From Sclerodactyla briareus (taxonomy: Eukaryota; Echinodermata; Holothuroidea; Dendrochirotida; Sclerodactylidae): a DNA stretch of 64,000 bases. Both the position numbers and the translations under genes were made by a program. Positions 2,703-55,758 of the stretch are shown here, piece after piece; position 1 is the stretch's first letter; the number at the start of each line of letters is the position of its first letter. A model generated the notes under the pieces. The model ran no database searches. It saw only the letters and a list, made by a program, of their open reading frames with translations, and had not been told where the DNA came from. The stretch covers positions 147,757-211,756 of the forward strand of contig JAODTK010004921.1 in assembly GCA_026419785.1 (NCBI GenBank), given 5' to 3'.

Positions 2703-3111
2703 ATGTTGAACCTCCTCAAGGTCCTCTTGCTCTGTGTCACAGTCTTCGCGGTCGCGCCAGAGAAAATGCGCTTCCACAGATACACCCCTGATAACACAAA
2801 GAGCATAACATTAACCGCGATAGAAGATGGGCCCTACCAGGCCAACTGGGACTCCATTGACTCGCGTCCCCTTCCAGGCTGGTACGATGAGGCCAAGTTT
2901 GGCATCTTCATCAACTGGGGAGTTTATACTGTACCTGCGTTCAAGACGGAGTGGTTCTGGAGGAGGTGGAAGGATGGCGATAAGGCCTTCGTCGACTTAT
3001 GGAGGGGAACTACCCGCCCCGATTCCAGTACCCAGATTTCGCGCCCATGTTCACTGCAGAGATGTTCGATGCCAACCACTTTGCAGACGTACTGCAGGCG
3101 TCTGGTGCACA
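2703..3111 (+). CDS. FUCA: alpha-L-fucosidase exon 1 (signal peptide and N-terminal catalytic barrel)
   Basis: The ATG at 2703 is chosen because it opens a hydrophobic leader of about 18 residues ending in VFAVA, followed by the conserved stretch [19 protein letters not shown]. The exon ends in ...ASGAC/Q with donor GTGAGT at 3112. One base is missing near 2998: the reading frame leaves FVDxM and resumes at [15 protein letters not shown] one frame over. The family normally has HWG where this protein has NWG; that His contributes to the fucose pocket, so the Asn is worth confirming. Confidence 0.93.
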
Positions 3112-6100
3112 GTGAGTCAATGGAATGTATTTGGTTAGATCAGGCAGCATGTGATGTGTGACTGATATCGTTGTGGCACTTTATGGTCGAGGTCCCATTC
3201 AATTTGTTTCAGCCTAAATGGTAATCACACAAGATTCTATACTTGAAATGAATGAAATTTTTTTGAGCATTTTTCATTGGCATTCCTGGCATTTTTAAAG
3301 CTTTTAGAGCTTTGAACCGCGAAATGAAATGTGGAATTTACCACATCTCATCGGCCCACACGCAGTTCCCAAAATGAAGGTTTCAAAATGTGATCAAATA
3401 ACTAGCCGTGATTAGAGCTGTATTGCTTTTAGGCATAAGTGGGGTCTGACGCACATGTACAGTGGTACTCACACCCATATCATGTCGTACTTTAGAACTG
3501 TGATGCCAGCAAGTAAACATTGCCAAAATCTATGTTCCAAGGTATGTGGTCCTCTCGAGCAAGCACCATGAAGGTTTCACACTCTGGGGCTCCAACTATT
3601 CATGGAACTGGAATGCAGTGGACTGGACCAAACAGGGATCTTGTTGGTGAGTGAACTCCGCGAGAATAGTCTTTTTAAAGTGGGTCTCGCCAAGGCTGTT
3701 TCGAGGGATGTCAATATTGGGATGCAAGGAACTCGACTTTTGATCTTTGGAGATCCAAATCTTTCAGCAAGAATATATTGCAAATCACCATATATTATAA
3801 ATACAATAGATTACTAAAAAGCAATAAATTATTTTCGATGGTCATGCAACAAACTTCATCCAAACTATAGCACGGGTGAAGAGCATGTTTCTTTTTTGAG
3901 ATAATCCATTTTATCTTTGAGGAAATGGAGGACTCTCAAACGTCAGAGTATAGGCAGATGCAAATGCCGTCCATTGACTTCACATTGTTAATGCCGCAAT
4001 GTTGTGTCTTATTGGTACAATCGAATCGGCAGACATTCGGTATGGGGATTGGTTTCCATAGTGTAATATATAGGAATTTCGCAACTTCGAGTCATATTTC
4101 CTGAACCATTATACTTTAAATGGGATTATAATAAAGCTGAAACCAAGGAGTGAAAAGTCTGAGTTTCCACGACATTATTGGAATTCCTCAAAAGACCTTA
4201 ATCTGTTTGTAACGGCAAACAAAATCTTAAAAAGATGAGTCTTCAAACTGTTCTCGGAAGTTGCTATAATTTAGTTTCCAACGGACCTAACCGCTGTGGA
4301 AGATTGTTTCAGACCTGAGCAGCTACACAATAAAACGATCTCTCACCCAAACGACTTCTAGAGGCAAGTTCCTGAAGTAGGCCTGGGGGGAAGAGGAGCA
4401 GCGCGACTGATAATGATATGAATATGATAATGGTATGATGTCAAAAGTCAGCGGGGTAGTCACACGTTTGACAGTCAGCCGCGTACACCAACATGAAACT
4501 TGACAATTTTCCTCATACTTATAGTGAAAACGGGATAAATTGGGTGTCCATTATAAAGAGTACGAAGAGAGGCAGTTTGAAAATCAGCCGTTATAAAAAC
4601 AACTCTATGGGAAAAATGTCGTCTGTGAGGTTGACTATGTCACATAATGTCAGACACACTAGTCTACAGTAGTCGGACGAGGCGGGTACCCCTAACCCTA
4701 ACTTTTTGAATTCTATCGATTAGTGTGCCTTACACTCTGTGGCATCGCAGTAGTGGAGTAACCCCGGATTGCAAGCCCGGGCTTAGCTGTTGAGTATGCG
4801 CACGGGGTTTGTTACCTTGAATTACGTACTGCATTATACAGGTAAGAAAGGATCCTCGTTCCTATATTAAAGCGTATGCTAATGTGTACTCATGTATTTC
4901 TCCAGGTGAACTCGCTGAAGCCATCCGTAGCAGGACGAAGATCAAGTTTTGGATTATACTACTCCCTTTTTGAGTGGTTCCACCCATTGTTTTTGAAGGA
5001 CCATCGAATAACTACACCACTAGTGATATGTTGAAGTAAGTCATGTACTCTGATGTAAGACAATTGGACTGAAGTACTCTGGATAAACCAAATTTCGTGG
5101 GTCAGTAACATCCTAACTGGGTGCATGGGAATATATTAATGAATAAATGTCATGGATCAATATACGTCAGTTTCTTCCCTCCCCTTTGGGTTGTCTCTCA
5201 CGGCCAGATGACATCACTGGTCTGTCAAACTAACCCCAGGATCACCCCAGTCATGGATTATTCCACCCAGTATACAGTGGCACTGTTGAGTCGGCAAATT
5301 GTTGATACAGCTAGTAGGGATATCGCCAGGAATCGTCCGACAGGGAAGCGACGGGACCCCGACGTGGCTCCATATCGTATGCTCCGATACGGGGAACTCA
5401 ACCTACCAACCTTGACCAACAACAATAGTTATATGGTCAACTCATTTACCATTACCAATTTCTTTTTGCATGTCCTTCAATTTTCTCAACTTCTCTTGAA
5501 AAAAAGCTACTTCGTCGGAGATCTATGGAAGCGAGGAAGGGTCCAATTAAAAGAGGCCCAAAATGCAGCACTCCGGACGTGCCATGCGATTGCCTAGAAA
5601 AAATGAAAGCCCACTGCCTGGTGACTGGATCAGTCAGGTGGGGTGGTGAATCAGTCAGGAAAGTGTCACCTGTCATAATGGGAGAAAATGGCGGCTCCGC
5701 AACATACAAACACATCAGTTCATTGTTCAACAAAATAAATCAAATAACGTTGCTGTTGGTTCTTTTTCCAGACGGTAATGAACCACGCTACACGAGTTGA
5801 TCAGCAAGTACGAGCCGTATGTTCTATGGTCCGATGGGGACTGGAATGCCCCAGATACTTACGGAATAGTGTGTCGTTCCTAGCATGGCTCTACAATGAA
5901 AGGTTGGGGAATTAGTTGTTTTTCATTCACTGTATCTCGCAATTGATCAGTTTGAACTGAAGCAAGAGTGTGAGCAAGAACATTGGCGGACGGGGATGTC
6001 GGAGCCCCTGGCTAATAGTACCGGCTCCATTGCTTGGCTATAAAAAAAAAAAAAAAACATCAACACAACTTTGCGTTTGGCCATTTGCAATCAGTCACAA

Positions 6101-9100
6101 TAGGTTCAATTCCCAATGCCATCATAGGCCGGGTTGCTTAGATCAAAATGAATTTGTTGTCCCCTTCTGTTGCTAAGAGGATTAGCAAGGAAGATTTTTT
6201 TTTTTTCTTTTTAATCTCACACCTCCGACGGTAGACAGTGTGACGCGTACCTGTAAACATTATTTCGATAGGCCCATTATCCATCGAACGAACACTGTTC
6301 TCCCGTGCCAGCTCAGGCTACTAATAATGCTCAGTTTATAAAAACTGCATGAAGGGACTAATCACGTTATTATTGAGATTTGTAGGCACACTAAACCGTG
6401 TAACTATCGGGGAGCGTGCACATAGTCATCAGGACAAACTACACTGTCTGCAGACTGACAGTTGTGGTCTAAGAGGACGGCATACTGCACTCTGGGGGCA
6501 CACGTGGCACGCACATCTCAGAAGAGCTTTCATATAGTTGATTTTCCAGCGATTTTGTAAACTTATTCAATATTCTCAAGATAAATCCAAGGTACTTCAT
6601 ATGCTGTGTTTGGCTATTGTTTATTCGCGTGTGTTTTATTTCGACAAAATAGTCTGTTTCTTCTGCCAGGAAAACATGAAGTAGTTCAATAATCAGCTCG
6701 AATGATGAGAAAATTCATGCATTATTTTGTCGCATTTGTCACTATTATATAGACCGCTCCTTAAACAGTAAGCTTTTTTTTGCTACATCACCATGGTCTA
6801 GCCCAGTGAAGGACTACGTAGTCGTCAATGACCGATGGGGAGAAGGCGACTCCTGTCACCACGCGGTATTTACACCTGCAAGGACCGTTACAACCCCGGT
6901 AAGATAACATCCTATATGAGGGCACAAAAGGAAAATGTGAATACTTTTCAAGCATAGGTCTGGAATAACCCTGCCCGCACTCACAATATTGGGAGGGTGA
7001 CCTTGCTATACTTGAACTGCTTACAGTAAAGTACGCTCTGTTACACTATTTTCATAAATGAACGACAACTTCTACATCCGAGTCGAATTTTGGTGTATTG
7101 GTTCTTTATGGAGTTATTAACTGATGTTAGGGTGGATATTTTTTCTCATGGGATCCCCAACCCGAACAAACATCTACTACAGTGTTTGTACAATGTGCTG
7201 GCTTTGTCCATTGGTAACTTGATATAAACTCATTAGCATCTGAACTCGTAACAATTTATGTGGTAAGGGGAAAAATGTTACTATCGCTGTCTTACAATCA
7301 TATCCACACACTCAACTCAAATTGCCCTGTTCTTCGAATCACTTGTCTGACCCATGATATTCTGGTACGGAATAGGTTGCCATGATCCAGCCAGATCACC
7401 TATTACGGATAATTTACATCAGAGCAGACAGTAGTCCACCGAAAAATTACCGTTCACTACAGACACACATCGATTGTTTACTTCCATAGCACCCAAGGCT
7501 GACCCCTCCAAAACATCCTGTGCGCCTAGGCCTGAGCACGCGGCGGACAAATTTGCATGCTATGCGATTTTCCCAACGAAATTGGAGCACGGAGACCTTT
7601 TTGAATAAAACGAGAAAATTGATCAATCACCAGAAGGTCAAATGTTGGGATATACACGTCGGCGGTTCAACAGCCTGCCGTCTAGTTTATTATCGATGTA
7701 AGTCCACACGGCCAATTTGACGGTCCATGCCATAGGGAGAGGTGTATGGGCGAGAATTCCTTGTCAGAGTTGCAGACAGTAGTCGTTTGATAATGATTTA
7801 ATATAATTATTTTAAATTTTAATTTTAAATATTTCAATTAATTTGATAAGGATGAAGTGGTCAACTGAGATGAAATGGTCCGGTACGACCTCGGAGTCGA
7901 AATAGGTCGTGCATAGGCTACTGACCTAGCAATGACCCTGATTTTGCTGAGAGACTGATGTGATGAGAGGGAACTGTTCATTATGATAATATGAGTCAGT
8001 GCCTCCCATACCTTCCGTTCAGTTGCTGTAATGATGCGTCTTTTTGTGCTACATGAAGCTACACAGCTGTAGACAGCCTATTCTAGCCTATTCCAAATGT
8101 TCAATGATAGGTTACCTACTATAGTAGTAGAACTGAGAATAACAATATTGTACTAATGCACGTTTCATCATGCTATGATGATTTTTTCTACATTTGATAA
8201 GAATCAGACACATCGTGCACGTGACTCATAATTCCCTGCGGTAACGCTCTACTGATTCAAGTCGCCTTATGTTCATAGGGGTTCTCCAACCTCACAAGTG
8301 GGAGAACTGTTTTACCATCGATAGGGGATCCTGGGGGTACCGCCGTGATGCCAATTGCGCTGATTACCTGAGCATGGACGAGATCACACAACCCTTGCCG
8401 AAACAATCAGGTAATTCATCTGCTTGTAATTAGAGTCTTACTGAAAGTTCGTTAGCCTTATTATTCCCTTTCTGATTCCTTGACAAAGTCAGTACTTGAT
8501 CATGTCTGGGTAGATCAGGCTCATCCTTTGTATGTGTGTTCCCCATGATGAGAACATAAGACCTATGGTTTTGGGACAGGTCAGAGGTCATTTGAGGTCA
8601 CCAGAGGTCAAAGTTGAAATTTGCTGTTTAACTTTCTTATGGGGGGGGGGGGGGGACCAGGAACTCCATTGTTTTCTGCTTCAGGTCGGTGGTGAGTCTT
8701 TGGGTCAAAATATGAATTTGTGAAAAGAAGCCGATTTTTGAATCAATTTTGGCTTGTAAACACGATAACTCGACCCCACCTAGATGGATGAAGCTTGTAC
8801 TTGGTATGTGTGTTCCCCATGATTAGTACATGAACCCTATTGGTTTGGGATAAAGTCAGAGGTCTTCTGAGGTCACCAGCGGTCAAAGTCCGAGAACCTC
8901 ATAAACACGATAAGTCCAGAAGGGTGGTCTGATCAGGTTGAAATTTGGTGTGTAGCTTTCTTATGGGGAATACAGGAACCCTATTGTTTTTTATATAGGT
9001 CGGGGGAGTATTTTGGTAAAAATAGAAATCAGTGAAAAATTGATATTTGGGAAATTTTGGCTTGCAAACACGGTAACTCGACCCCACCTGGATGGATGAA

Positions 9101-12100
9101 GCTTGTACTTGGTATGTGTGTTCCCCATGATTAGTACAAGAACCCTATTGGTTTGGGATAGGTCAGAGGTTCATCTGAGGTCACCAGAGGTCAAAGTCCA
9201 AGAACTCATAGCACGATAAGTCCAGAATGGGTGGTCTGATCAGGTTGAAATTTGGTGTGTAGCTTTCTTATGGGGAATACAGGAACCCTATTGTTTTTTA
9301 TATAGGTCGGGGGAGTATTTTGGTAAAAATAGAAAATCAGTGAAAAATTGATATTTGGGAAATTTTGGCTTGCAAACACGATAACTCGACCCCACCTAGA
9401 TGGATGAAGCTTGTACTTGGTATGTGTGTTCCCCATGATTAGTACATGAACCCTATTGTTTTGGGGCAGGTCACTAGAGGTCAAAGTCTGAAACCTTGTT
9501 AACAAGATAATCCTAAAATTCACGAAAAGACAATATTTTGGCTTGTAAACATGATAACTCGAATCGACCCGGATGGATAAAGCCCATACTTTCCATTTAT
9601 GTGTGTTACCCATGATGAGTACATGAACCCTATTGTTTTGGGGGTCGGTGTAAGAGGTCATCTGAGGTCTCCAGAGGCAAAAATCTGAAAACCTCGAAAT
9701 TTAGTGTGTAGCTTTCTTATCATAGTATAGGAACCCTATTGGTTGGTTGGGAAAAATGGGAAGGAAACGTGTCAGACGTTACCCGTTGCCCATAATGAGA
9801 TGGTAAATCTCCCGTAGTCCTTGGTTGGCTATATGTTGTCAGAAAGAGGTAAAGGAATCACTTAGCCTTTTGGCTTTCTGGTGTTCTATCCATTCGACCA
9901 CCCAACCAAGAAGAAGCATGCGCGTGTATGCGTCCAGCTTCAATTAAGCCGGCTAACATGGCAGAAACACATTGGACGCTCAAACGAACGACTGGAATGA
10001 ATTCTACCCAGCGACGTCCAATGAAATATTAGTTCCAATACTGGCCTCGAAGATGATGTCACCCACGAAATTGGGGTGGGAGTAAATTTGACCTTCTATT
10101 CTATATAGTTATAAAGTACACACACTAGAACAATACTTTCAGCTAAACAAAGGTGATATGAGAATTCATTAGAGCTAGCAAGCAAAATTCCCAACATTGA
10201 AATGGCCTGATTTCAGCGAAAGAGAAACTGCAGATATATTCAATGGGTGCAAATTTGAAAAAAAATAACAAAATTGCAATTTATGTAGAGTTGCATACAT
10301 GAGAATGGGAAATAATTTGAACAATAGGGACAACCCCACACAGTATTTGGATTTATAAATAAAATTCTGAATGATTACATACAACTTCCTCATTGGCAAA
10401 GATCTGATATAGCCCGAAATATGAGCGTTTTTGCAAATATATCTGGCAAGGAAAGTAATTTAAAAAAAAATCTTTAAATGGAAAAAACAAACAAACTGAC
10501 TTATCTATCGACGATATCCATCATATTTGTCCATATTGATTTTGTAACGAATCGAGATGATGCTTTACTCAAAACTTCGTGAAACGAGGGCAGGCAGTTG
10601 ACAAAGTACCGTATTATCAAAAATAGAAGTGTACGAAAAGCGATGAGGTTACAAAAGAACGAGACACACGTAGTGGCAATCAGGCATGGAAACGATCTGC
10701 CAGGGAACTTGTCCATTAGCCTATCTAACGTTAACTACGCTATTTACATTACTGTACTACACTACATGGTAGGCTAGCAGTAGTAGTAGAGGTAGTTTAC
10801 AGTATGTGGCTGAGTAACGTCTCCGGCCGGGCGTTTATTCACAAATAAGATGAAAAAAAAAAAAAAAAACATGGCGGTATCATCGATATTTCACTACGAT
10901 TTGTGTGTATTCCTGTCTCTGGTAAAAATGCGTCACTCTGCAAAATGACTTGGGATTCCATACGAAATACATACGACGCTGTGGACATAACTATAGCTTG
11001 ATCGATCCCTGGGTTTCGTTTTTGCATACAAAACTACAGTTGTGGTGGCAACCTCTTATGAAAACTTTGGTCCTACCCATGATGGGCGGATCATCCCGAT
11101 CTACGAGGAGAGACTGAGGCAGACTGGGGCCTGGCTGAAGGTCAATGGAGGGCGGCTGTCTATGGGTCCAAACCAGGGACTGCACAGCAGATGAACCCTT
11201 GACAAAGGGAGATGGTGAGCCTGAATTACCATATAGCACAGGTTTCCCCCATGGTTGGGGGGGGTGGGGGGGGGGGATGGGGGTGGTGGGGGGGGGGGGG
11301 TGGGGACCTGGGGGTGGGGGGGGGACCTGGGTAATCATGGAGAGGCTGTCTATGGGTCCAAACATGACGACAGAATGATACCCGACCAAGGGAGGGTAGT
11401 TGGTGATCCTGAATTACATATAGCAAGGTTCCCCCATGGTTGGGGGGGGGGGGGGGGTGGGGGGTGGTGGGGGGGGGGGGGGTGGGGAACTGGGAGTTGG
11501 GGGGGACCTGGGTAATCATGGAGAGGCTGTCTATGGGTCCAAACATGGACTGCACAGAATGATACCCTGACCAAGGGAGGAGTATGGTGAGTCCTGACTT
11601 ACCATATAGACAGGTTTCCACCATGGTTGGGGGGGGGGGAGGGGGTGGGGACCTGGGGGTGGGGGGGGGACCTGGGTAATCATGGAGAGGCTGTGCTATG
11701 GCTCCAAACCAATGGACTGCACAGAATGATACCCTGACCAAGGGAATATGGTGAGTCCTGAATTACCAATATAGCAAAGGTTTCCCCCCGGTGGGGTTGG
11801 GGGGGGGGGGCTGGGGGAACTGGGGGTGGGGGGACCTGGGTAATCATGGAGAGGCTGTCTATGGCTCCAAACCATTGGACTGAACAGATATGATACCCTG
11901 ACCAGGAGGGGATATAGTATGGTGAGGCCTGAATATATATAGCACAGGTTTCCCCCCATGGGTTTTGGGGGGTGGGGGGGAAGGGACTGGGGGTGGGGGG
12001 GGGGGCCACATGGGTTAAACATGGAGAGGTGTCTATGGGTCCAAACCTGGACTGCCACAGAATGATACCCGACCAAGGGAGTAAGGTGGCCTGATTACCA

Positions 12101-15100
12101 TACAGCAAGGTGTCCCCCATGGTTGGGGTGGGGGGGGGGGGGTGGACCTGGGTAATCATGGAGAGGCTGTCTATGCTGTTTGCTATGTTCCTAACAGGGC
12201 CCTCATTAACGGTAGTGTAAGTGTCAGAAAATCAGAATAGGTATTTTCGCAGCCCCTTCTGGTCGTCATCTTATTTAACCGCTCAGATGTGCATGTGTTT
12301 CTGCCAGACGCAGCGATTCGTATTTCAAAATATGATGTGGTTTCGTACTTCATATGGAAAGCGGCGTTCGAGATGTTTCAGCGACGATCTCCAGAATTGT
12401 TCCACTGTGACACCAGGGTATGCTTCAGAGCAAATCGCTGACAACTTCACAGCTAGAGAAGTCCAAAAAATGAAAAGTGTGTCACGATGTTACACTGAAT
12501 AGCGAACCTCCTCATTGTCTCGCCAGAATGAAAATCTGGAGGAGACTTAGTGGTCACTAGGCGTTGTGTGTGTGTGTATGTGTGTGTGTGCGTGTTGGCT
12601 GTTGTGTTGTGTGTGTGTGTGTTGGTGTGTGTGTGTGGGTCCACACTTCCTCGTGAACAGGATATCTGTCGAACGGCAAGTGCAATTGCCACGAAATTTT
12701 CAGGGTAGCATTCGGGGTTGGGTGAACACGATCTGATTAGAATTGGCACGAAAGCACTTAATTAAGTAAGGTAATTAGCCTATTTGTAATTATTGTTTAG
12801 GCTCGTGAGATGAGCAAGATTGACGGGATGAACCGTAGGTGCATGGTGACTCGGTTTGGCACATATATGCGGGATAGGAGGTAGATGAATGATTAGATTT
12901 TTCAGCGTAAACTAGGGTCATCAAAGGTCAATTCGGGGTCAAAAACGTGTGTTTTTTGGCCATAACTTGGGAACAAATGACGCCGAGGTTGGGAGGGGCA
13001 CCATTTTTGATTCACTCGTTGACCTCCATCTGTGGGACCTTTGACCTAAGTGACCTGTTCCATGTTTTTGCCGACCATCAAATTTTCGTTGCCATTCGGA
13101 TCTCAGAGATACATGGACCAGGGAGTATGGATGAGTCCTGGAATACCATATAGCACAGGTTTCCCCCATGTTGGGGGTGGGGGAGGGGGTGGGGGTGGGG
13201 GGACCTGGGGGTGGGGGGGGGGAGCCTGGGAATCATGGAGAGGCTTTGCTATGGATCCAAACCATGGACTGCACAGGAATGGATACCCTGACCAAGGGAT
13301 ATGGTGAGTCCTTGAATTACCATAGAGCCCAGTTTCACCATGGTTGGGGGGGGGGGGGTGGGGGTGGGGTGGTGGGGGGGTGGGGGTGGGACCAGGGAAG
13401 GTGGGGAGGGGGACATGGGTAATATCATGGAGGGGTGTCTATGGGTCCCAAACCATGGACTGCACAGAATGATACCCTGACCAAGGGAGTATGGTGAGCC
13501 TGAATTACCATATAGAACAGGTTTCCCCCATGGTTGGGGCGGGGTGGGGGAGGGGGGGGTGGGGACTGGGGGTGGGGGGGGGGAGCCTGGGGTAAGGAGC
13601 CTGGGTAATCATGAGAGGCGTCTATGGTCTCCCAAACCAGGGACGCCACAGAATGATTACCTGACCAATTAGGAAATGGTGAGTCCTTGACAATTACCTA
13701 TAGCAAGGTGTCCCCCATGGTGGGGGTGGGAGGGGGGGGGGGGTTGGGTGGGGGAACCTGGGGGTGGGGGGACCTGGGTATCATGGAGAGGGCTTTCTAT
13801 GGCTCCAACCAGGGACTGCACAGAATGATACCCTGACCAAGGGAGTGGGGAGTATGGTGAGTTCCTTGAATATCATATAAAGCACAGGTTGCCCCCATGT
13901 GGTGGGGTGGGGGAGGGGGAGGGGGACCTGGGGGTGGGGGGGGGGGCACCAGGTTATACATGGAGGAGGCGGTGTCTATGGGTCCAAAACAGGGACTGCA
14001 CAGTAATGATACCCTGACCAGGGGTATGGGGCGTCCGATTACCATAAGCAAAGGTTCCCCGCATGGTTGGGGGGAGTGGGGGGGGGGGGACCTGGGTCAT
14101 CATGGAGAGGCTTGTCTATGCTGTTTGCTAGTTCCTAAAGGGCCTAATTAAACGGGAGGGTTACGTGGTCAGAAAATCATGAAAGGCTTTTTCGCAGCCC
14201 CTTCTGGTCGTCACTTATAACGCTCAGATGGAAGGTTTTGACCAGACGCAGTCGATTCGTATTCAAAATATTGATGTTGTTTTGTACTTTCATTTATGAA
14301 TAGCTGGCTTTCGAGTATGTATCAGCGAAGCGACTTCCAGAGTGTCCACTGTGACACCAGGGTATGCTTCAGAGCAAATCGCTGCCAAACTCACAAATAA
14401 GATGTCAACAAAACTGAAAAGTGTTTCACGATTGTTACACTGAATAGCCGACCTCCTCATTGTCTCGCCAGAAGGAAATTCTGGAGGCGACTTAGTGCGT
14501 ACAATATGACGCTGTGTGGGTGTTAGATGTGTGTGTGTGAGGTTGTTTGTTGGGTGTGTGTGTGGGTGGTGTGTGTGTGTTGTGATGGGTGTGTGTGTGT
14601 TGTGTGTGTGTGTGTGTGTACAATTTCCTCGTGAGCAGGATATCTTGCGAACGGCAAGTGCAATTGCGCGAAATTTTCAGGGTAGATCGGGTTTGGGGTG
14701 AACACTGATTGATTAGAAGTTTGGGCACGCAAGTCAATAATTAAGTAAGGTAATTAGCATTTTGATGTAATTTATTGTTTAGGCTCGGGAGCAAGAACGG
14801 ATGAAAACCGTAGGTGCTATGGGTACTTGGGGTTTGGCACATATATGCGGGATATGAGGTGAGAATGATTAGATTTTCAGCGTAAAAAAATAGGGTCATC
14901 AAAGTCCATTAGGACGTGTCAAAAAAATGGTGTTTGGCCATAACTTGGGAACCAAATGACTGCCGAGGTTGGGAGGTGCCACCATTGGATTCACTCGTTG
15001 ACCTCCATCGGTGGTGACCTTTGACCTCATGACATTTTCCATGTTTTTGGCCGAATCAAATTTTCGTGGCCACTTTATTGGATCTCAAAGGAACCTTCCG

Positions 15101-18100
15101 ATCGAAAGAGCCTATGGACCCCCATGTGACCTTTGTGTGTGAAGATATCAGAGGTCAAAGTTTTCAATTTGGAATCAAGTGCAGTTAGTTAGATTGTTCG
15201 TAGGTAGGAGTGATTGTCATGGTGATTTTTAGAATCGCAGGTCAAACTACCCATGAAAATGGAGTCAAAGGTCAAAGGTCAAATGTTGGTACTGAAGTGC
15301 TTATTTTCGAAGTACAGGGCAAAGAACATTACAACTGTCAATTTCTATAAAAATGGAGATCTGGCAGAAGCTCTTGTGTGTCGAATAGACGAACAAAACT
15401 CCCGCTTCAATCTGGCACTCGGTTTCTCAAGTTACGAGGGGGTCAAAGGTTTGGTTTTGATACCTTTTGGCAATAGCATTCGGCAGTAGTATACTTTGGG
15501 GGACATTATGCTTGTAGGAATGCGGCAATCTTATCGAGCGTGAAGAGAAGTAAACATTTTTCATTAAACTGACATGTCATCAAAGGTCATCAAGGTCACT
15601 CATGGAGGAAAAAAACTAATATTTTTGGAGACAAACTTAACATGACATTGCTTGGGCAATGTTGGAAATGTCAGACAGGGTGTTAGTCATGGGGAGAACA
15701 TTTTCCATAAAAAACCATCTGTCATCAAAGGTCATTCAAAGTCACGTCTGGCATATAACTGCCAAATAGTATGTTTCTGCAACAACTTCCAGTGACCTTT
15801 CCTGATGTGGTTATATTTCAGGACAGGGTGTATGTCCCCCATTCTAGGGTTCTACATTTTATAAAAATGGTCATGTATCCGAGGGTCATTAAAGGTAATT
15901 GGAGGTGCAAAAACTGATTTTGGTTACTTATGCGGCAATAGCACTGGGAAAGGTGAACAGAATACAAAATGCTTCCAGAAGGATGTTGTATCACATGGAG
16001 AGTTACAATTTTCATAAAACACTGTCCTGTAATTGAAGGTCATCCAAGGTCACTAGGGGGTCAAAAAACTGTTTTCTGCGATAATCGGAGATGAATATCT
16101 GTGAGGGACTGGAAGTGGAAGGTCACCATTGTGATATAATGGTTGACTGCATGTGTGTGACCTATGACCTCAATTTGACCTCTGTCGGGGGTGGTCAGTG
16201 GTTTAAACGGGCTTTGAGTCTTGAATAAATGTGCTTATTAAGGATGTTACGGGCAAAAAAAATAGATACTGGTTATTTTTCGATATGTGATCGACCTTTG
16301 TGGTGCTTTATGGAGGGGACCACATCCTCGCTTCGATCGGACCCTACTGGTAGTTTTACAAGGGGTCAAGTTTAATTTAATAGCTTTTCGCAAACTAACA
16401 TTAGGCGTGTTAATAGGAATGCAAATGCTCTAGGAGTGATGCATCACATGGAGATGGTAACAATTTTTATAAGAGCCGCCATGTCATTGGAGGTCATCAA
16501 AAGGCACGTTAGGGGTTCAAAAACTGATTTAGTACTTTTGGCACATAGCCACTGGGAATGTCATCAGAATAGAAAATGCTCCTAGGAGTGGACTGTATCC
16601 ACATGGAGATTTCAATGTTCATAAAAACTGCCAGGTAATTAAAGGTAATTCAAGTTAACTTAGGGGTCAAAACTTGTTTCCTGGCCATAATCGGAGAATT
16701 GAAGTATATGTGAAGCTGGAAGGTTAACCATTGTCATATAATTGTGACCTGCATGGGGTTTTGTGACCTCTGACCTCAATTGACCTCTGTCGGGTTGTCA
16801 AGTGGTTTTAAGGTTGAGTGTTGAATAAAAGTGCTTATGTAAGGAGTTACGGGCAAAAAAAAAGTAGGAAAATGGTTATTTTGGATATGGATAGACCCCT
16901 GTGTGCTTTATGGAGGAAACCAAGGGGAGGAAACAACTAGCGCTTCGATCGGACGCATACTTGGGTAGTTACAAGGGGCAAAGTTTAAGCAAGCTTTTTT
17001 CGCAATAACATTAGGATTGTTCATTGGACTGCAATATGCTTCTAGGAGTGGCATGGCATCACATGGAGAGTACAATTTTTGTTGGATAAAAACGGCCAGG
17101 CAGTAAAGGGTCATTCAAAAGGTCACTTAGGGGCAAAAAACTGTTTTGCGGCCTAATCGGAGAATGAATATGTTGAAGGCCGAAAGGTTCACCATTGTGA
17201 TTTAAATTGTTGACTGCATGGGTGGGACCTCTGACCAATTGACCTCTGGCGGGGTGGGTCATGTGGGAAAAGGTTGAGTCTTGAATCTAAAAGGGTTTTT
17301 TATTTAAGGAGTTAACGGGCAAAAAAAAAATAGGACTGGGTATTGGCAAAGTGGGGATACAAGTTGGCGGTCTACCGCCAGGCGGTTGTTTTTTTTTTGT
17401 CTAGTTAAGTAAGGGAATTAGCCTCTATATAGTATCGATTGTCAGGGCTCGTTAGCAAGATTACAGATGATACCGTAGGGCTATGGTGACGTGTTTGGCA
17501 CTAGATGCGGGATAGAAGTAGAGTACGATTAGATTTCAGCGTCAAAATATGCTAATTGGGTCGTCGCTACTTTGCAATAATTTATGCGAAACAATCCACA
17601 AAGTTATCAGATTTTTTTTCATTCCATCACCACTCTTCTGTGAATAGAGCACTCTTGGGATTATTCACTAGATAAAATTTATATTTGACATAGGGTGGTG
17701 CAAACTGGAGGTCATTCAGTGTGTTCTTTCGAATGGTGTTTCCCAATTTCAACGTGGATGATTCCTGTAAGCTTGATGGTATGGTCTACCTACTAGTTTT
17801 CCCCCAAAAATTGAACATAACATTGACTCAAGTCACTGGGGGTTACTCAGTGTGTATAATTGTTCAATTCAGGCAAATGTTCACGTTTGTTGAATTCCAT
17901 GATTACGGGTGGTCCTGAGATATGTTGAGTGAGCAATGCGTCAATAGGAAGGTGAATATGTGTCTAATTTGCATATTAATTCAGGCGATCTTTAGTCACA
18001 TTTCCACCAACGTTATACTTCTTCAACTCTCAGTTAGACAGTGCCAATCAGTCCTTAGAATTTGAATTGATCACGGATAGTTAGGGTGTGTTTAACTGCT

Positions 18101-18964
18101 TATACCAAAATCTTACAAAGCAACACATAAATTCTTTGTAATGTTGCTGGTGACTATTAGATGGAAACATGATCGCGCAACCAGGCGAGACAATGGTGGG
18201 GCCGGGATCGCCTTGTTTTGATTTTGTGGTCTTGACGGCATTTTCACCAGGGCAACAATATGTGTAATGCCCTTTCCAGTTAGTGTAATAGCGCCATGGT
18301 CCAACACCATATACCCTGTACCAGGAACAACTCACAAATGCCAAGTGCAGGTATCATTATCCGGGTTAACCACGGCCACTGACTCGAACTTCCGGAGTCA
18401 TTACCAGTCCTAGTGCTGTACGTACGTTTTAATTACATGAAAAACATAACTGTATTCAAAGGAAGTTTAGTCTGGTTAGATAATAGATTGTGTGATCTTA
18501 TGGACCTCTTGAAGCCCATTCAACCAGTTTCAATATACAGGTTGACCATATCCAGTAGAATCAACCTTGATCAATTGGGGACAACTCATTGGTCCAGTTG
18601 GTTTAATTAGGGGAAGGGAGCATTTCACATCGAGTCAATAAAAACTTAATGGGATGTAATAGGTCTCAATGGGATTTTCCTCGCAGGGTTGGTCACCGTT
18701 TCCCCCCCCCTTCTTCCAGGTACACTGCCAAGAACTCCTATGTGTATGCAATTCGTCTGGACTGGCCTGAGGTACAATACACTGAACCTAGAGTCACCCG
18801 TACCTACCGGGGATACCGTCGTCATGATGCTGGGTGTGAAGACCCCCTCCACTGCAGAAGGGTACAACAGAGGGGTCACCATTCCTGTCATTTTCCCCGC
18901 CCTGGCAGGACCGCAGCTGCCCTGTGACTATCCCTGGGTTCTCAAGATGTCTATGATTCAGTAG
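2703..18964 (+). CDS. FUCA: alpha-L-fucosidase, GH29 family (whole gene, 8 coding exons)
   Basis: Predicted glycosidase that removes alpha-L-fucose from glycoproteins and glycolipids in lysosomes or outside the cell. Eight exons (2703-3111, 3542-3646, 4906-5035, 5772-5902, 6802-6898, 8279-8410, 11040-11214, 18720-18964) join through GT-AG introns to about 1,424 nt, or about 474 residues, the usual GH29 animal length. Visible landmarks in order are an N-terminal signal peptide ([18 protein letters not shown]), [75 protein letters not shown] and SWGYRRDA. From family knowledge the Asp of WSDG (5833-5835) is the nucleophile and the Glu of HKWE (8302-8304) the acid/base. Several one- or two-base shifts interrupt the frame and look like assembly error. 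FUCA1-type is likely; separating FUCA1 from FUCA2 or a lineage-specific paralogue needs a tree. Confidence 0.96.
3112..3541 (+). other. Fucosidase intron 1
   Basis: GTGAGT donor to CCAAG acceptor, 430 bases. A/T-rich, and I see no other feature in it. Confidence 0.8.
3542..3646 (+). CDS. FUCA: alpha-L-fucosidase exon 2
   Basis: Encodes [20 protein letters not shown] and WNWNAVD, then [14 protein letters not shown] is the signature GH29 substrate-pocket segment. A one-base deletion near 3622-3625 separates VD from GPNRDLV. The acceptor is CCAAG/G and the donor GTGAGT at 3647. An ORF at 3602-3817 that runs on through the donor is a frame shadow. Confidence 0.93.
3647..4905 (+). other. Fucosidase intron 2
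   Basis: About 1.26 kb. A short CCCTAACCCTAAC stretch at 4688-4701 resembles telomere repeat by chance or by capture. Nothing else is recognisable. Confidence 0.75.
4906..5035 (+). CDS. FUCA: alpha-L-fucosidase exon 3
   Basis: After the acceptor TCTCCAG the codons read [32 protein letters not shown] and [11 protein letters not shown], ending at donor GTAAGT (5036). One extra T near 4947-4951 and one missing base near 5002 disrupt the frame. The FEWFHP motif is typical of the GH29 barrel. Confidence 0.92.
5036..5771 (+). other. Fucosidase intron 3
   Basis: A 158-codon ORF at 5121-5597 lies here, but its translation matches nothing I know. The flanking exons join without a gap against the family, so no exon is missing and I do not call it coding. 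Confidence 0.7.
5772..5902 (+). CDS. FUCA: alpha-L-fucosidase exon 4 (catalytic nucleophile)
   Basis: Contains [20 protein letters not shown] followed by [11 protein letters not shown]. The Asp codon at 5833-5835 in WSDG is the predicted nucleophile. Indels near 5796 and 5862 (TAC/TGG junction) break the frame. The acceptor TTTTTCCAG is strong; the donor is AG/GTTGGG. Confidence 0.94.
5903..6801 (+). other. Fucosidase intron 4
   Basis: Carries an A-run at 6042-6056 and a T-run at 6195-6204. No other feature is seen. Confidence 0.75.
6802..6898 (+). CDS. FUCA: alpha-L-fucosidase exon 5
   Basis: Reads [19 protein letters not shown], then [15 protein letters not shown] after a one-base deletion near 6863. 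NDRWG and HHGG are conserved GH29 segments. The donor is GTAAGA at 6899. Confidence 0.93.
6899..8278 (+). other. Fucosidase intron 5
   Basis: About 1.4 kb. The stretch 7645-7715 shares a GTCGGCGGTT...CTAGTT core with sequence near 52430 and, more weakly, near 17365, so it is probably a dispersed-repeat fragment. An A/T-rich segment lies at 7796-7850. Confidence 0.65.
8279..8410 (+). CDS. FUCA: alpha-L-fucosidase exon 6 (acid/base residue)
   Basis: Reads [36 protein letters not shown] and LAETI. Glu at 8302-8304 in HKWE corresponds to the proposed acid/base residue of human FUCA1. SWGYRR is a family signature. One base is missing near 8390. The donor is AG/GTAATT. Confidence 0.93.
8411..8520 (+). 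other. Start of fucosidase intron 6
   Basis: Unique-looking intron sequence before the satellite. The whole intron runs from 8411 to 11039. Confidence 0.6.
8521..9720. repeat. 308-bp satellite in fucosidase intron 6
   Basis: The landmark TATGTGTGTTCCCCATGAT starts at 8531, 8805, 9113 and 9421, giving 274, 308 and 308 bp spacing; a diverged copy starts near 9598. Each unit carries several AGGTCA half-sites and the segments GAACCCTATT and ATGGGGAATACAGG. ORFs read antisense at 8899-9087 and 9206-9661 are translations of the same units, not genes. Confidence 0.93.
9765..9912 (-). mobile_element. tRNA-derived SINE-like fragment
   Basis: On the - strand the segment begins GGTTGGGTGGTCGAATGGATAG, a good match to a tRNA 5' half with A box. 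It then runs into a non-tRNA tail with GGGCAACGGGTAACGTC. The B box is weak. A tRNA gene is excluded because no second half folds. Confidence 0.4.
9913..11039 (+). other. Rest of fucosidase intron 6
   Basis: A/T-rich, with an A16 run near 10853-10868. Between about 10170 and 10730 the + strand shows short open stretches in alternating frames. They look faintly like decayed coding sequence but match no family I recognise. Confidence 0.55.
11040..11214 (+). CDS. FUCA: alpha-L-fucosidase exon 7
   Basis: The acceptor AACTACAG joins exon 6 in phase to give SCGGNLL, then [17 protein letters not shown] and [12 protein letters not shown], then AVYGSKP and TKG before donor GTGAGC at 11215. The last ~70 bases carry several extra or changed bases compared with the consensus of the downstream array copies, which read [20 protein letters not shown] cleanly. 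The array therefore records the better sequence of this exon end. Confidence 0.93.
11145..12175 (+). repeat. Exon-7-derived minisatellite, array 1
   Basis: Tandem units start (ATGGAG landmark) at 11145 (the true exon), 11337, 11518, 11682, 11846, 12021 and a truncated 12158. Spacings are 192, 181, 164, 164, 175 and 137 bp. Each unit is about 67 bases of exon 7 end, the exon/intron junction (TATG/GTGAGT), TTACCATATAGCACAGG, TTTCCCCCATGG, then 60-100 bases of G-runs and ACCTGGGTAATC. Donors of the units at 11518 and 11682 are intact GTGAGT; others are altered. Proline-rich ORFs on the - strand (about 11000-12160) are just the G-runs read backwards. Confidence 0.95.
12176..13105 (+). repeat. Tail block A of the duplicated array
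   Basis: About 930 bases that start exactly where the last exon-like unit breaks off (CTATG/CTGTTTGCTATG). The same block follows array 2. It holds a (TG)n tract at 12565-12640, then TAAGTAAGGTAATTAGC, CATATATGCGGGATA and AGGTCA-type motifs. The 93-codon ORF at 12221-12502 lies in this repeat and is not supported as a gene. Confidence 0.9.
12565..12640. repeat. (TG)n microsatellite in block A
   Basis: Interrupted TG dinucleotides; the equivalent tract in block A' is at 14516-14620. Confidence 0.9.
13106..14120 (+). repeat. Exon-7-derived minisatellite, array 2
   Basis: A truncated unit at about 13112 retains only the 3' part (AGGGAGTATGG). Units at 13235, 13427, 13611, 13783 and 13960 and a truncated one at 14102 follow. 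Spacings of 192, 184, 172, 177 and 142 bp echo those of array 1. GTGAG donors survive at the ends of the units beginning 13235, 13427, 13611 and 13783; the 13960 unit has lost it. The array ends at the same broken position as array 1. Confidence 0.94.
14121..15072 (+). repeat. Tail block A' (second copy of block A)
   Basis: Aligns with 12176-13105 at an offset of about 1,945 bp, including TTTTCGCAGCCCCTTCTGG, GACACCAGGGTATGCTTC, the TG tract and GGCCATAACTTGGGAAC. Single-base gaps are numerous between the copies. Past about 15072 the sequence continues (GGAACCTTCCGATCG), whereas block A breaks into the second array. Confidence 0.92.
15073..16009 (+). repeat. AGGTCA-rich intron repeat sequence
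   Basis: Low-divergence echoes of phrases such as TCATCAAAGGTCA occur again and again. A perfect AGGTCAAAGGTCA (DR1 type) lies at 15269-15281. The spacing is irregular and the sequence appears to be part of the same repeat family as the neighbouring tandem copies. Confidence 0.6.
16010..17340 (+). repeat. Three-copy tandem repeat, ~460-606 bp unit
   Basis: The landmarks TAATCGGAG (about 16083, 16689, 17153), GACCTCTGTCGGG-like (about 16178, 16784, 17240), TTACGGGCAAAAAA and CTTCGATCGGA recur in order. The first unit is longer because of an extra internal piece around 16440-16600. The copies differ by many small gaps. Confidence 0.85.
17404..17545 (+). repeat. Partial third copy of block A
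   Basis: TTAAGTAAGG-AATTAGC, GGCTCGT-AGCAAGATTA and GGCACTAGATGCGGGATAG-AGTAGA match 12755-12905 and 14740-14885. It lacks the exon-derived array, so this part of block A is a dispersed repeat that existed apart from the array. Confidence 0.75.
17546..18719 (+). other. 3' part of fucosidase intron 7
   Basis: Mostly featureless. It includes the antisense ORF annotated below and a short inverted pair TGACTC/GAGTCA at about 18379-18401. The acceptor TTCTTCCAG at 18711-18719 follows a C-run. Confidence 0.6.
18081..18344 (-). CDS. Hypothetical Cys-rich small ORF, antisense in intron 7
   Basis: 87 codons. The translation has an aromatic/basic core ([20 protein letters not shown]) and further Cys pairs near the end (EFMCCF). 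I do not recognise a family. It has no flanking evidence for transcription, lies inside another gene's intron, and could be one exon of a nested gene or chance. Confidence 0.2.
   Translation of the reverse strand: MAFVSCSWYRVYGVGPWRYYTNWKGHYTYCCPGENAVKTTKSKQGDPGPTIVSPGCAIMFPSNSHQQHYKEFMCCFVRFWYKQLNTP
18720..18964 (+). CDS. FUCA: alpha-L-fucosidase exon 8 (C-terminal domain, stop)
   Basis: Joins exon 7 across TG/G (Trp) to give [18 protein letters not shown], then [19 protein letters not shown] in the next frame, and ends ...[13 protein letters not shown] with TAG at 18962-18964. The frame changes near 18771. This is the beta-sandwich C-terminal part of GH29 enzymes, where WYT and YAI.L.WP are typical. 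Confidence 0.94.
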
Positions 18965-21731: not shown

Positions 21732-22335
21732 ACGTAAGACTGGTATACTACACATAAGCGGAATACTGGGTCAGTATAATAGCGCCTCAACGTAAGACTG
21801 GTATACTACACATAAGCGGAATATAGGGCCAGTATAATAACGCCTCAACATAAGACTGGTATACTACACATAAACGGAATATAGGGCCAGTATAATAACG
21901 CCTCAATATAAGACTGGTATACTACACATAGGCGATATATAGGACAAGTATAATAACGCCTCAACGTAAGACTGGTATACTACACATAGGCGGAATATAG
22001 GGCCAGTATAATAACGCCTCAACATAAGACTGGTATACTACACATAAACGGAATATAGGGCCAGTATAATAACGCCTCAACGTAAGACTGGTATACTACA
22101 CATAGGCGGAATATAGGGCCAGTATAATAACGCCTCAACGTAAGACTGGTATACTACACATAGGCGGAATATAGGGCCAGTATAATAACGCCTCAACATA
22201 AGACTGGTATACTACACATAGGCGGAATATAGGGCCAGTATAATAACGCCTCAGCATAAGACTGGTATACTACACATAGGCGGAATATAGGGCCAGTATA
22301 ATAACGCCTCAACGTAAGACTGGTATACTACACAT
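21732..22335. repeat. 58-bp satellite, 10 full units plus one partial
   Basis: AAGACTGGTATACTACACAT starts at 21736, 21794, 21852, 21910, 21968, 22026, 22084, 22142, 22200, 22258 and 22316, an exact 58-bp period with few substitutions. The unit also carries CGGAATATAGGGCCAGTATA and ATAACGCCTCAA. Its uniform length contrasts with the gap-ridden G-rich array and shows that base calling is good here. Confidence 0.97.
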
Positions 22336-31739: not shown

Positions 31740-32760
31740 GCTTCCAAATATGTAATTAAGCAATTTGCATGATGGGCCCTAGCCACATTTTGCCTTCAGC
31801 CAGAAGTCCCTGACAACCCTGATGAACCACTAACCAAGGATCATTACACATAAGCAATTTTGGCTTGAGATGCATTCACTAATGTTTTCATTCCATGGAA
31901 GTTCATGAAATGGGCCTTCCGGCCCAAGTGAGACCTGGATCAAAAGTTCCTGACCACCCCAAGGTTCGCGGTGACCATCATCGGTCATGTCGTACTGTGC
32001 CTCAAAACTGGGAGAGGAGAGGCATTTTGCCGGTATTCCCATGGGCTCTCAGGTCCACACTTGGCCTTGGGTCCCCAATCCTGGGCACCATGAAGTATGC
32101 TTTAGACCCCTTATGACCGAGCATCAACACTGTGCAACTAGATTTGTAGGAAATCTATATTTCGCAGTATTTCAGATGATGGTCCCTAGGGCCCAAACTG
32201 GCCTTGGGCCCAAATTCCTGAACCCCCGCAATGGCCCTCTACAGAAGACCCTTACCTGTAAAGTTGAAGAAACCAAACTGTGGGGAGGGATGCATTCTAA
32301 CACCATTTTTGTGAAATATCATAAACCTGGGCCCTAGTGGCCGAGTCAGACCTTGGAACAGAAAATCTCAACACCCAAGGTACGTCTATTAGACCTTCAT
32401 TATTACCGAACATCGCACTGTGCAACTGAATTTGTAGGCATACAATATTTGGCAGTTTTCATATATTGGGCCCTAGGGCCAAAGTGGGTCACTGGCCCAA
32501 AATTCCGAACACCCGATGCCCTATACCCAAGACCATTACATGTAACTAGAAGGACATCAAATGAAATCGTGTGGGAGGAGATGCCTTCAAGTACTATTGT
32601 GTGAAATTTCATAAAATGGGGGCACTCGGGCCTAAGTGGGACTGTGGTTAAAAATTTCCTGAAAAACCCGAAGGTACGGCTGCACTGTGCAACAAATTGT
32701 AGGAGGAGATATATTTGGAAATTTTACACAGAATGGCCTATATGCCCCTTTAATGGGCTT
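31740..32760. repeat. Degenerate tandem repeat, roughly 150-bp unit
   Basis: Phrases such as GGGCCCTAGGGCC, CACTGTGCAACT..ATTTGTAG and TTCCTGA-CACCC recur about every 110-170 bases, each copy diverged. ORFs at 31987-32337 and 32353-32604 are repeat translations. Confidence 0.65.
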
Positions 32761-35188: not shown

Positions 35189-35952
35189 TACAGAGTAGGT
35201 CAATGCCTATCTGCGCTTGCTGTACGGTTGATGACGTCCGCCTTCAACCGTGTTTCTTGTAGCTGGAGGTGGAGTCGATCTTGTTTTCCGTCCGATCTCT
35301 TGAAGTCCACAGTTTGGCCAGTAGTATCTTCGGTTCGACACAATCAGTAAAAGTGTCGATCTCTTGGAGTGCTCTAGTGTGCTTCTCTGAGAACGATCCA
35401 TGTGGACGTTTGGCTTGTCGGGAGAGTTCGGCGCGCCAAGTCTCGATTATCAAATTTATGACCGCACGACGAAAGTGACGAGGTCCAAAGACTCAGATTC
35501 CTCGACAGTGCAGTTAATTGAGCCTGGTAGTCTCGGTAGATTTTTATTGACTTGTAGGTGGTCGTAGGTAGTGAGGAGCGCCCCTCCCCGTAGCTACACC
35601 ACTGTTCAAGCACTGGCAGACTGGAGAAGACTATAATTGCATATCGTACCATAGATTACTGTTCCATGTTTACAAATTTGAGAATAATGAAAGCAAAGCC
35701 TGTACAGTTTAACAACTTGAAACGTCAATCAAAATAAAAAATACGGGATTGTCTTTTTGCCTTTGGCCCTTCAGTGGCCCTTCATGAACTGCACTTTTTA
35801 TAAGCCTCATCTAAAAGTATTTGGTTTTGCCATGCACCTCTAGGCCCCCTTGACTTCTTACCATAGCTGTCAGGAATTTGGCTGCACGTAGTAAAATGCC
35901 ATTTTCTGCAGTGTATGTGTTTAATGTTCACTTCCGAGCTGAGCTTAATACT
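35189..35952 (-). other. Coding-like antisense segment, possibly old retroelement
   Basis: On the - strand, overlapping ORFs at 35207-35401, 35244-35453 and 35374-35652 give charged, helix-prone translations (for example RALQEIDTFTDCVEPKI). A decayed gag-like protein is possible but I cannot assign it. Confidence 0.25.
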
Positions 35953-36217
35953 GCCACCGTCAGGGGCGTAACAGACCTGACTGGGAGGGTGCCACCGTCA
36001 GGGGCGTAACAGACCTGACTGGGAGGGTGCCACCGTCAGGGGCGTAACAGACCTGACTGGGAGGGAGGGGGGGGGGGAGAGTATGAAAGTTTCCCGATTT
36101 CCATTCCCGAGAAGTATGACCACAGAAAAACAGTTGCGTGTTTACATTCGCCCCCTGCCGAGAAGTCCCCTGTCTGCCACCCCCGGGCCACCCTCTGGTT
36201 GCGCCCCTGGTCATCGT
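35953..36217. mobile_element. hAT-like MITE with triplicated left end
   Basis: CAGGGGCGTAAC on the left and, inverted on the right, CAGGGGCGCAACCAGAGGG (ending 36209) resemble hAT terminal inverted repeats. The flanks GCCACCGT (35953-35960) and GTCATCGT (36210-36217) match at 6 of 8 positions, the hAT target-site length. A 38-bp unit made of the flank plus the left terminus is repeated three times at 35953, 35991 and 36029. There is no transposase inside. Confidence 0.65.
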
Positions 36218-38060: not shown

Positions 38061-38169
38061 TACATGTATTAGGCTACATGGCTACATGTATTAGGCTACA
38101 TGGCTACATGTATTAGGCTACATGGCTACATGTATTAGGCTACATGGCTACATGTATTAGGCTACATGT
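38061..38169. repeat. 22-bp minisatellite, 5 copies
   Basis: TACATGTATTAGGCTACATG plus GC starts at 38061, 38083, 38105, 38127 and 38149. The copies are identical; the last is cut after 20 bases. Confidence 0.97.
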
Positions 38170-45559: not shown

Positions 45560-47599
45560 TTGAAATGTATTCCTCACCGCGCTGTTAGGCAGACAGAAAC
45601 GAGACTTCCTTACAAGTTCCAATAGGTGTCAGTATAGGCTACTGCTGACCTATTATCAAGGTCTATTAATCGACTATATGGAAACAGATGTTGGACTGCC
45701 CGTTAGCAGTTTGATTGAAGAAATAAATGACTAAAGAAAATTCACTGGAGAAAATTGCAATGGAAATATGTGATGAAGGGAATTGAGCCGTGTCTTTTAA
45801 AACTAAATTACATTGTACAAACATTTCAAACCGGAGCAATTCATCTTTCCGTTGAACGATGAGTTGAAAAAATGGTAAAATTTCATATTTCCTGAATCCT
45901 GCAAAACCTGATATTAAACTTTGCGACCAATTGGCAACACACGATTAGCTACCTATCACAGATGGGCGGATTTAAACTTTGGACTTTGGGCTCGGCGATA
46001 AGCTAACTACCACCGTTTGATTATGGATTGATTGGGGCCTGTTACGTTTGCCTATACACTATTGCATATAGGATCCAATGTTTATATAAGCAGGCAGGCG
46101 TCTATAATGACGATGTTTGCTACTGATCTCGTGGTATTAGTAGGTCTTCGGGTATAATGAGTTATCATACCCTGCATGTCATTAAGGGAGGGGCCACAGA
46201 GGAAAGTTCGATCATAAAAACGTGTGTATATGATAACCATAACAGCGATATTTTCAACTTTGACAGATTGACACAGCAACATGAACCGCCAGAGGCACCG
46301 ATCAAACTCGAGCGCGTGTTTGAAGGTAAATGTTCGTTTCAATGCCCCTTATCGATAAGATTGGGCAGACCTATGTGCCCACGGAAAATACAAGGTGGAT
46401 TCTTTATAATTTTCAAAAGAATTTGTGGCGATGCGTATGGGTTCGTCATCACGTGAGTTTTTTGGAAGCTATTTTACGGTTATTTAAACGTTATTAAAAT
46501 GTTTTATTAATGAATATATTATGACATGGTTTCCATGGTTATTGAAATGAGCAACAGCTAAATGTCAACTAAGTCTACGTTCGAACATCTTGAAATCCTG
46601 TAAAATATATTAGTACATAAAGTCGCGTATTGATTCCGTATAACACTAGGTCCTTCGTAATTCCTTCCATATGCCTAAAATCGGAATGGCGGATTCGAAT
46701 AGTTCAGTCAAATTTCTTCAGGTCCTAATTACGACTGGTTGGAACAATCTTCTGAAATGTCTGAAATGTTTCACCCGGGGCCACGCAGCAAGCAATGGCA
46801 AATGCAAAGAGAGAACTAAGAAGGTGGTGTGAAAAAAGATGACTATATGTTAATGTGCCAGAGAGTGGGAAGCTAAGATGTCCTAAGCTTAATTGATGAA
46901 ACTTGAAGATGACAAAAGATAATAAATTGTCATGCAGATGTTGAGGTTGGTGGCAACTGCGAGAGCTCTTGCGGTAGATTAAAATCCATATAGTTACGTA
47001 TTTTCGGATAGTGTGCCAATGATGGACAGTATCGACTAATTAAGATTATGAAGTAAATATAATGAAAATCATCATCATAACTTCAATATAACATTTGTCA
47101 CAACGCATCGACAGACACGTTAAGGAATTGACCGGTCACAAGAAAAGAAGAAACAAATAATCGGCTGGCTACTTGTACGTAATGTGCCACATTAAACCGT
47201 GTTTCCATGAACGCTTTGGGCGGGCGGGAGGGCGGGGTTTCTTCGAAAATTCAGCAGACCTCTTCTCACCTTGATTGTATATATATACGCTATAAAGAAC
47301 CGTGTAGCCTATATTATATTAGAATTATTATTTTCTTATTAGTATTATTATCTATCATGATCTATCAAACATCGGACGCATAGGACTACTGTGTTTAAAC
47401 CGAAACACAAGGTGTGTAGTTCTTAAAACCATTGTTCTAAATGCGACTTCACAATTGGAAAGGTTTTGGAGAATTATTAGCATAAACTTGACACGTCAAT
47501 GGTTTTTAAACATGCAAATATTGGTTTCAAATAGGTGTGCCGTTAAAAATGGAGGAGGAATTTGTATAGATTCATTTACGATGTTTAAACAGTTAGGAG
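45560..47599. other. 5' flank of the SANS-like gene, no gene seen
   Basis: A promoter for the SANS-like gene should lie here on the - strand, but no convincing TATA or CpG-rich element stands out. A 99-codon ORF at 46157-46456 is unrecognised. Confidence 0.45.
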
Positions 47600-55645: not shown

Positions 55646-55650
55646 CCCCG

Positions 55651-55713
<63 letters not shown>

Positions 55714-55758
55714 CCCCCCCTTCCCCCCCCCCCCCCCCCCACCCCCCCCCCCCCCCCC
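55646..55758. repeat. Interrupted poly-C tract, ~110 bases
   Basis: Nearly pure C with a few T, G and A interruptions. The Pro-only (or Gly-only) ORFs across it are artefacts. The length is unlikely to be exact. Confidence 0.95.

Follow-up and report, generated by a model that had tools for sequence, protein, structure and literature searches.

Introduction

Tandem repeats that open on the 5' splice site (donor) of their own exon have a described precedent in the human gene ABCA7, where intron 18 carries a variable number tandem repeat (VNTR), a C-rich low-complexity region whose first two bases are the exon 18 donor (PMC5954066). There, splicing from a cryptic donor that lies one unit farther downstream retains one 25-bp unit and shifts the frame (PMC5954066). 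Here we analyse a stretch of 64,000 nucleotides from the holothuroid Sclerodactyla briareus (NCBI GenBank assembly GCA_026419785.1, contig JAODTK010004921.1, positions 147,757 to 211,756 of the forward strand; hereafter the window, with positions counted from its first letter). The window looks like animal DNA and carries, on its plus strand, a GH29 alpha-L-fucosidase gene, at whose exon 7/intron 7 border the end of the exon, its donor and the start of the intron are repeated in tandem. In the explanation that we favour and consider probable, a young array of about the exon plus five units is viewed through an unpolished patch of the assembly, in which one block is present twice. The finding is probably real, yet smaller and less exotic than it first appears.

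Like the ABCA7 VNTR, so far as the accessible text describes it, the fucosidase array directly adjoins its exon, includes the exon's donor and consists of units that carry spare donors; unlike that VNTR, whose 25-bp units start at the donor, its units measure 140-192 bases and hold about 67 coding bases each (PMC5954066). A first-pass annotation of the window, made by a model from the letters, knew of no described gene with this arrangement, a statement overtaken by ABCA7, in which the repeat starts with the donor of its own exon and a unit donor is used (PMC5954066). The precedent is known, and the copying of the coding exon side along with the donor is the difference here. Among the matches listed in the open literature, none was an array repeating a coding exon end with its donor. 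Use of a unit donor and length polymorphism have been demonstrated for the ABCA7 VNTR, whereas the fucosidase array is known from the sequence of one assembly alone.

In intron gain by tandem genomic duplication a new intron reportedly arises, whereas the fucosidase case multiplies an existing donor inside its own intron. The two are alike, to go by the accessible part of the source, in that the duplicated stretch carries splice-site sequence (PMC4974935). In the myostatin-2 gene of the seabream Sparus aurata, intron 1 has length alleles, and its 5' end holds one or two copies of a ~150-bp block (PMC3045353), and the fucosidase repeats likewise sit at the 5' end of their intron. The seabream block differs in being intronic, with at most two copies and no copied coding sequence described in the accessible text (PMC3045353). 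Finally, false duplication, which may pass for the duplication of an exon, is described as one of the commonest assembly errors, and the same account places false homotype duplications at contig boundaries and gives their size as about read length (PMC8081667).

The fucosidase gene and exon 7

By its domain content the gene is a GH29 alpha-L-fucosidase, with both the catalytic domain PF01120 and the C-terminal domain PF16757 recognised. Exon 1 matches PF01120 (2.3e-18, 67.2 bits, cut-off 25.2) and the tissue alpha-L-fucosidase 7pls_A in the PDB (3.8e-16), and the consensus peptide of exons 7 and 8 is recognised by PF16757 and PF01120 (36.5 bits with a cut-off of 25.6, and 26.1 bits with a cut-off of 25.2); the rest of exon 8 on its own scores 18.8 bits, under its Pfam cut-off. 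A tblastn search, probed with a human fucosidase sequence, found the coding sequence in eight segments spread over 2.8-19.0 kb. The segment bearing the array is the seventh, so the earlier label "exon 7" is right, as is the acceptor given at 18719.

2835..18964, plus strand: GH29 alpha-L-fucosidase gene with eight coding segments, host of the array (Pfam, PDB match, tblastn segments)
11040..11214, plus strand: exon 7, with its donor at 11215; the ~67 bases from 11145 to the exon end form unit u1
18720..18964, plus strand: exon 8; partner acceptor AG at 18718-18719

The acceptor AG of exon 7 (11038-11039) was called by eye, and the 29 codons immediately upstream of the exon 7 end (11063-11149) read cleanly in tblastn. 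Of 12 stretches translated, the ten read in the right frame are free of stops; the remaining two (5790-5857 and 6805-6862) were read out of frame and carry no weight. Frame shifts separate neighbouring tblastn segments in four of the eight exons (2835-3112, 3540-3651, 5623-5900 and 18679-18961); we read these as residual insertion or deletion (indel) errors, fitting a modestly polished long-read assembly.

Array units and layout

A tandem unit opens with some 67 bases from the end of the exon and runs through the donor and some 40 bases of intron into a G-rich tract, which ends ACCTGGGTAATC. Tandem copies of this kind are present where the first-pass annotation had placed them and lie well beyond chance, ATGGTGAGT being found five times against 0.63 expected, a count that none of 100 shuffles reached. 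A blastn search of the window with the unit core returned 13 matches, all within 11154-14069, among them the truncated unit at 12158-12175. We count 11 full units with the exon itself included, and hence ten after it, not the eleven or so previously reported; the three truncated units of that report (12158, 13108 and 14102) are confirmed. Full units measure 140-192 bases, a range that depends on where they were cut, in place of the earlier 164-192. Nor is there one array from 11145 to 14120: two like-built groups, 11145-12175 and 13108-14120, are split by a non-array stretch at 12176-13100, here called sequence A (copies A1 and A2), which recurs at about 14120-15072.

11337..12157, plus strand: block 1, five full units u2-u6 (starts 11337, 11518, 11682, 11846, 12018)
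12158..12175, plus strand: truncated unit of 18 bases, an exact 18-base match, fused to sequence A
12176..13100, plus strand: sequence A, first copy (A1), non-array, 82.1% identical to 14120-15072
13108..14101, plus strand: block 2, partial unit v1 (13108) and five full units v2-v6 (full starts 13237, 13428, 13611, 13783, 13960)
14102..14120, plus strand: truncated unit fused to the second copy of sequence A
14120..15072, plus strand: sequence A, second copy (A2), from self-comparison

The unit consensus has the core GGAGTATG/GTGAGT (the slash marking the exon/intron junction); it restores the fucosidase frame, presents the donor ATG/GTGAGT and gives the correct run-on into exon 8. The genuine end of exon 7 fares no better against this consensus than the copies do, with 10 edits over its 67 bases. 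Because the exon end is as garbled as the copies and the consensus restores the frame, it is probable that the real units hardly differ from the exon and that the array is either young or homogenised. One variant, GGCTCC, is carried by u4, u5, v4 and v5 and by none of the seven other full units, a distribution with a chance of 1 in 330 in a test that was picked post hoc and in which the assignment of v4 depends on the alignment.

As for origin, a microhomology at ATGGAG, shared by exon and unit, had been proposed. That argument is circular, as the unit was defined to start there, and the intron sequence once found after GGTAATC is not preserved. The array may have arisen by tandem duplication of the exon/intron border, followed by growth through unequal exchange or through slippage aided by the G-rich tract.

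A block present twice

When the window is compared with itself, 11279-13094 and 13176-15072 align at 78.5% identity (1949 columns). A block of about 1.9 kb thus occurs twice, and both of its copies end alike, in one kind of truncated unit fused to sequence A of about 0.9 kb. When u2-u6 are compared with v2-v6 as whole units, the in-order pairing has an edit-distance sum of 181, the lowest of all 120 pairings (mean 240).

Over their full length A1 and A2 are separated by 105 gap events, 79% of them of a single base, against 46 substitutions. Outside a TG microsatellite, 26 of 39 substitutions are A/C or G/T exchanges (p 2e-5 against one third) and five are transitions. Part of sequence A has distant relatives (~70%) at 55807-56122 on the minus strand and at 17405-17564, from which it follows that sequence A contains a dispersed repeat. 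When the distant relative at 55.8 kb is taken as reference, A1 and A2 each have differences of their own (45 and 31), and 25 further differences are unassigned.

Noise resembling raw reads

11150..17350, no strand: raw-read-like (unpolished) patch, limits approximate; strong at 11145-15072, weaker at 15857-17344, left limit taken from the clean codons at 11063-11149

Within this patch, the exon part of the 11 full units (737 bases) departs from the consensus by 49 insertions, 24 deletions and 20 substitutions (12.6%), and the 104-base core of the same units (1144 bases) by 56 insertions, 46 deletions and 37 substitutions (12.2%), 25 of the 37 being A/C or G/T exchanges. As a benchmark, raw PacBio reads are given 8.0% insertions, 3.2% deletions and 1.7% substitutions (12.9% in all), with A/C and G/T exchanges elevated, whereas in nanopore reads it is transitions that are elevated, according to the accessible part of the source (PMC7671305). 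Both marks of raw PacBio sequence are found here, namely an error near 13% with indels exceeding substitutions and an elevation of A/C and G/T exchanges over transitions.

Comparisons inside and outside the patch differ accordingly. Five comparisons inside it yield 50 transitions and 88 A/C or G/T exchanges among 187 substitutions, with 218 gap events (1.17 per substitution); six repeat pairs outside it yield 69 transitions and 46 such exchanges among 140 substitutions, with 78 gap events (0.56 per substitution). Tandem Repeats Finder reports 10-12% indels in the long-period arrays of the patch and 0-1% at 8.7-9.5 and 21.7-22.3 kb, and transitions make up 21 of 23 substitutions in the repeat at 21.7 kb and 17 of 32 in that at 8.6 kb. 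At 15857-17344 lie three successive repeat copies of about 0.5-0.6 kb, 73-76% alike and with many gaps; their three mutually overlapping comparisons, counted among the five inside the patch, lean only weakly the same way (62 of 148 A/C or G/T exchanges, 45 of 148 transitions). GC skew was tried as a marker of the patch limits and rejected: it is positive over 11-18 kb, yet values above 0.15, up to 0.33, also occur in 14 of the 113 remaining 500-base windows.

To judge from their spectra, the differences between units and between A1 and A2 look like raw PacBio error. The genuine exon end serves as an internal control, in that it should stay undecayed in a working gene; its being garbled like the copies indicates that the noise comes from the sequence data and not from evolution. 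With raw-read-like errors in this stretch, what sets one unit apart from another is no record of evolution.

Spare donors and their predicted consequences

GTGAG is intact in eight of the 11 full units (seven of ten when the exon is excluded) and in none of the three truncated ones, two of which stop short of the donor; these counts correct the earlier figure of at least six. Examples of unit donors are those at 11587, 11751, 13304, 13494, 13679 and 13857. If all true donors were intact and only the noise acted on them, retention in 6.1 +/- 1.7 units would be expected, with a probability of 0.21 for eight or more. The data thus fit intact donors throughout, without special conservation of the motif, as 30 of 104 5-mers are retained equally well or better.

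The first donor, that of exon 7, would normally be joined to exon 8, and the unit copies would be spare donors of equal strength. Use of a unit donor would lengthen exon 7 by whole units, and translation would stop at once, the consensus frame past the donor reading W-stop. Since the stop is immediate past any donor, decoy use would reduce the yield of functional message and make no new protein. Decoy splicing from the unit donors is plausible. As to the earlier claim that the units lack acceptors, the consensus unit holds a CAG/G (CATATAGCACAG/GTTTCC) in pyrimidine-poor surroundings, judged by eye to be weak.

A bolder extension, which we put forward as a speculation more probably wrong than right by a wide measure, is that the locus is an amplified 5' splice-site cassette, composed of a coding exon end, a donor and a G-run tract, whose copy number would tune the amount of functional fucosidase mRNA. 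The genuine donor would then compete with every copy, each a spare U1 site of full strength, and splicing from any of these copies would end translation at once.

Weighing the explanations

The young array of about the exon plus five units remains our favoured reading. For the second block, a double entry of one locus in the assembly is more likely than a real, very recent duplication. In false homotype duplications, as described, neighbouring copies differ in the manner of sequencing errors and are liable to be taken for exon duplication (PMC8081667); A1 and A2 fit this description, but v1 does not match u1. Five observations weigh against the favoured reading, of which that mismatch is one: partial unit v1 is closer to u3 (14 edits) than to u1 (25 edits), where a plain second entry predicts otherwise. 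Second, on unit cores alone 43 of the 120 pairings are as good as or better than the in-order one; as the in-order pairing is special on whole units and not on cores, the signal of unit order sits in the G tracts. Third, the 1.9-kb block is below the expected length of long reads, while false duplications are described as about read length. Fourth, with the intron part included, insertions dominate less than in the PacBio benchmark (56, against 46 deletions and 37 substitutions). Fifth, the pair at 32.1 kb, one of the six outside the patch, has a similar pattern of indels and substitutions, so that the noise is not confined to the patch. This tandem pair (32102-32681), with many single-base gaps and transitions in 9 of 37 substitutions, is perhaps another unpolished spot.

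The strongest competitor, to which we give about half the credence of the favoured reading, is that the duplication of the 1.9-kb block is real and very recent, such that the locus truly has two arrays and the noise alone is technical. The dissimilarity of v1 and u1 speaks for it, since the second block need not then be a re-entered piece, and so does the join at ~13100, which falls inside a unit, as exchange within the array could yield. Set against this, the five transitions among the 39 A1/A2 substitutions leave hardly any true divergence once noise is taken away.

That the entire array is an assembly or read artefact, in a genome with a single exon 7 end, is unlikely. The stretch is visibly unpolished and the block apparently duplicated, as such an artefact would have it, but both blocks share the five-unit layout and the fusion to sequence A, and GGCTCC is limited among full units to u4, u5, v4 and v5. 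A search of 11.0-17.6 kb for inverted repeats (at least 25 bases, seed 12) gave just one 29-base pair, 72% complementary. This single weak pair rules out a missed-adapter palindrome, which had been considered as a source of the double block and counts among the artefacts at issue here. We know of no read artefact that yields direct repeats of 165-190 bases.

Very unlikely is the proposal of the first-pass annotation in its full form, in which some 11 real and diverged units make up a long minisatellite and serve as decoy donors or as a splicing trap. The units do sit at the place it named, eight of 11 retain GTGAG, and the exonic as well as the intronic side of the donor has been duplicated with it. 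Yet block 2 mirrors block 1, the differences between units show the raw PacBio spectrum, the genuine exon is just as garbled, and the retention of the donor is unremarkable among 5-mers. Its core idea, that tandem amplification carried an exon end and its donor into the adjoining intron of the gene, explains the array best; its scale and its long diverged history are unsupported, as the second half mirrors the first and the divergence matches raw PacBio error. Least probable of all is that the differences are biological, the mark of a decaying pseudogene or an old array, as the frame changes in four of eight exons might suggest, and we reject pseudogene decay on the excess of indels over substitutions and the rarity of transitions in A1/A2 and in the units, set beside the transition-rich repeats at 21.7 and 8.6 kb of the same window, and on the absence of stops from the ten in-frame stretches.

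Elsewhere in the window

A tRNA scan and an Rfam scan at the gathering threshold returned nothing in the window. A 58-base tandem array at 21732-22335 (10.4 copies, 94% matches) has zero indels, and 21 of its 23 shifted-copy substitutions are transitions. Perfect tandem repeats lie at 35952-36065 (38-base x 3) and 38061-38168 (22-base x 4.9), and a mostly-C run of 114 bases at 55645-55758. On the minus strand, an open frame at 45366-45584 has weak ankyrin-repeat similarity (E 0.003, below the Pfam cut-off).

Implications

Where part of a draft assembly is left unpolished, a small repeat can appear large, old and diverged, and the present locus offers a test for such patches that needs no reads: an excess of indels together with the A/C and G/T spectrum, for which the genuine exon provides the internal control. 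Were the array confirmed by accurate reads, its row of identical exon ends with donors would be a natural experiment on donor choice, for which the human ABCA7 VNTR is a disease-related parallel. And if the cassette reading, doubtful as it is, were true, the exonic side would, unlike in ABCA7, have been copied too, and the decoys would be indistinguishable from the true site both to U1 and to the signals of the exon end; the sea cucumber fucosidase gene would then test, in nature, by what rule the splicing machinery picks one of several equal donors.

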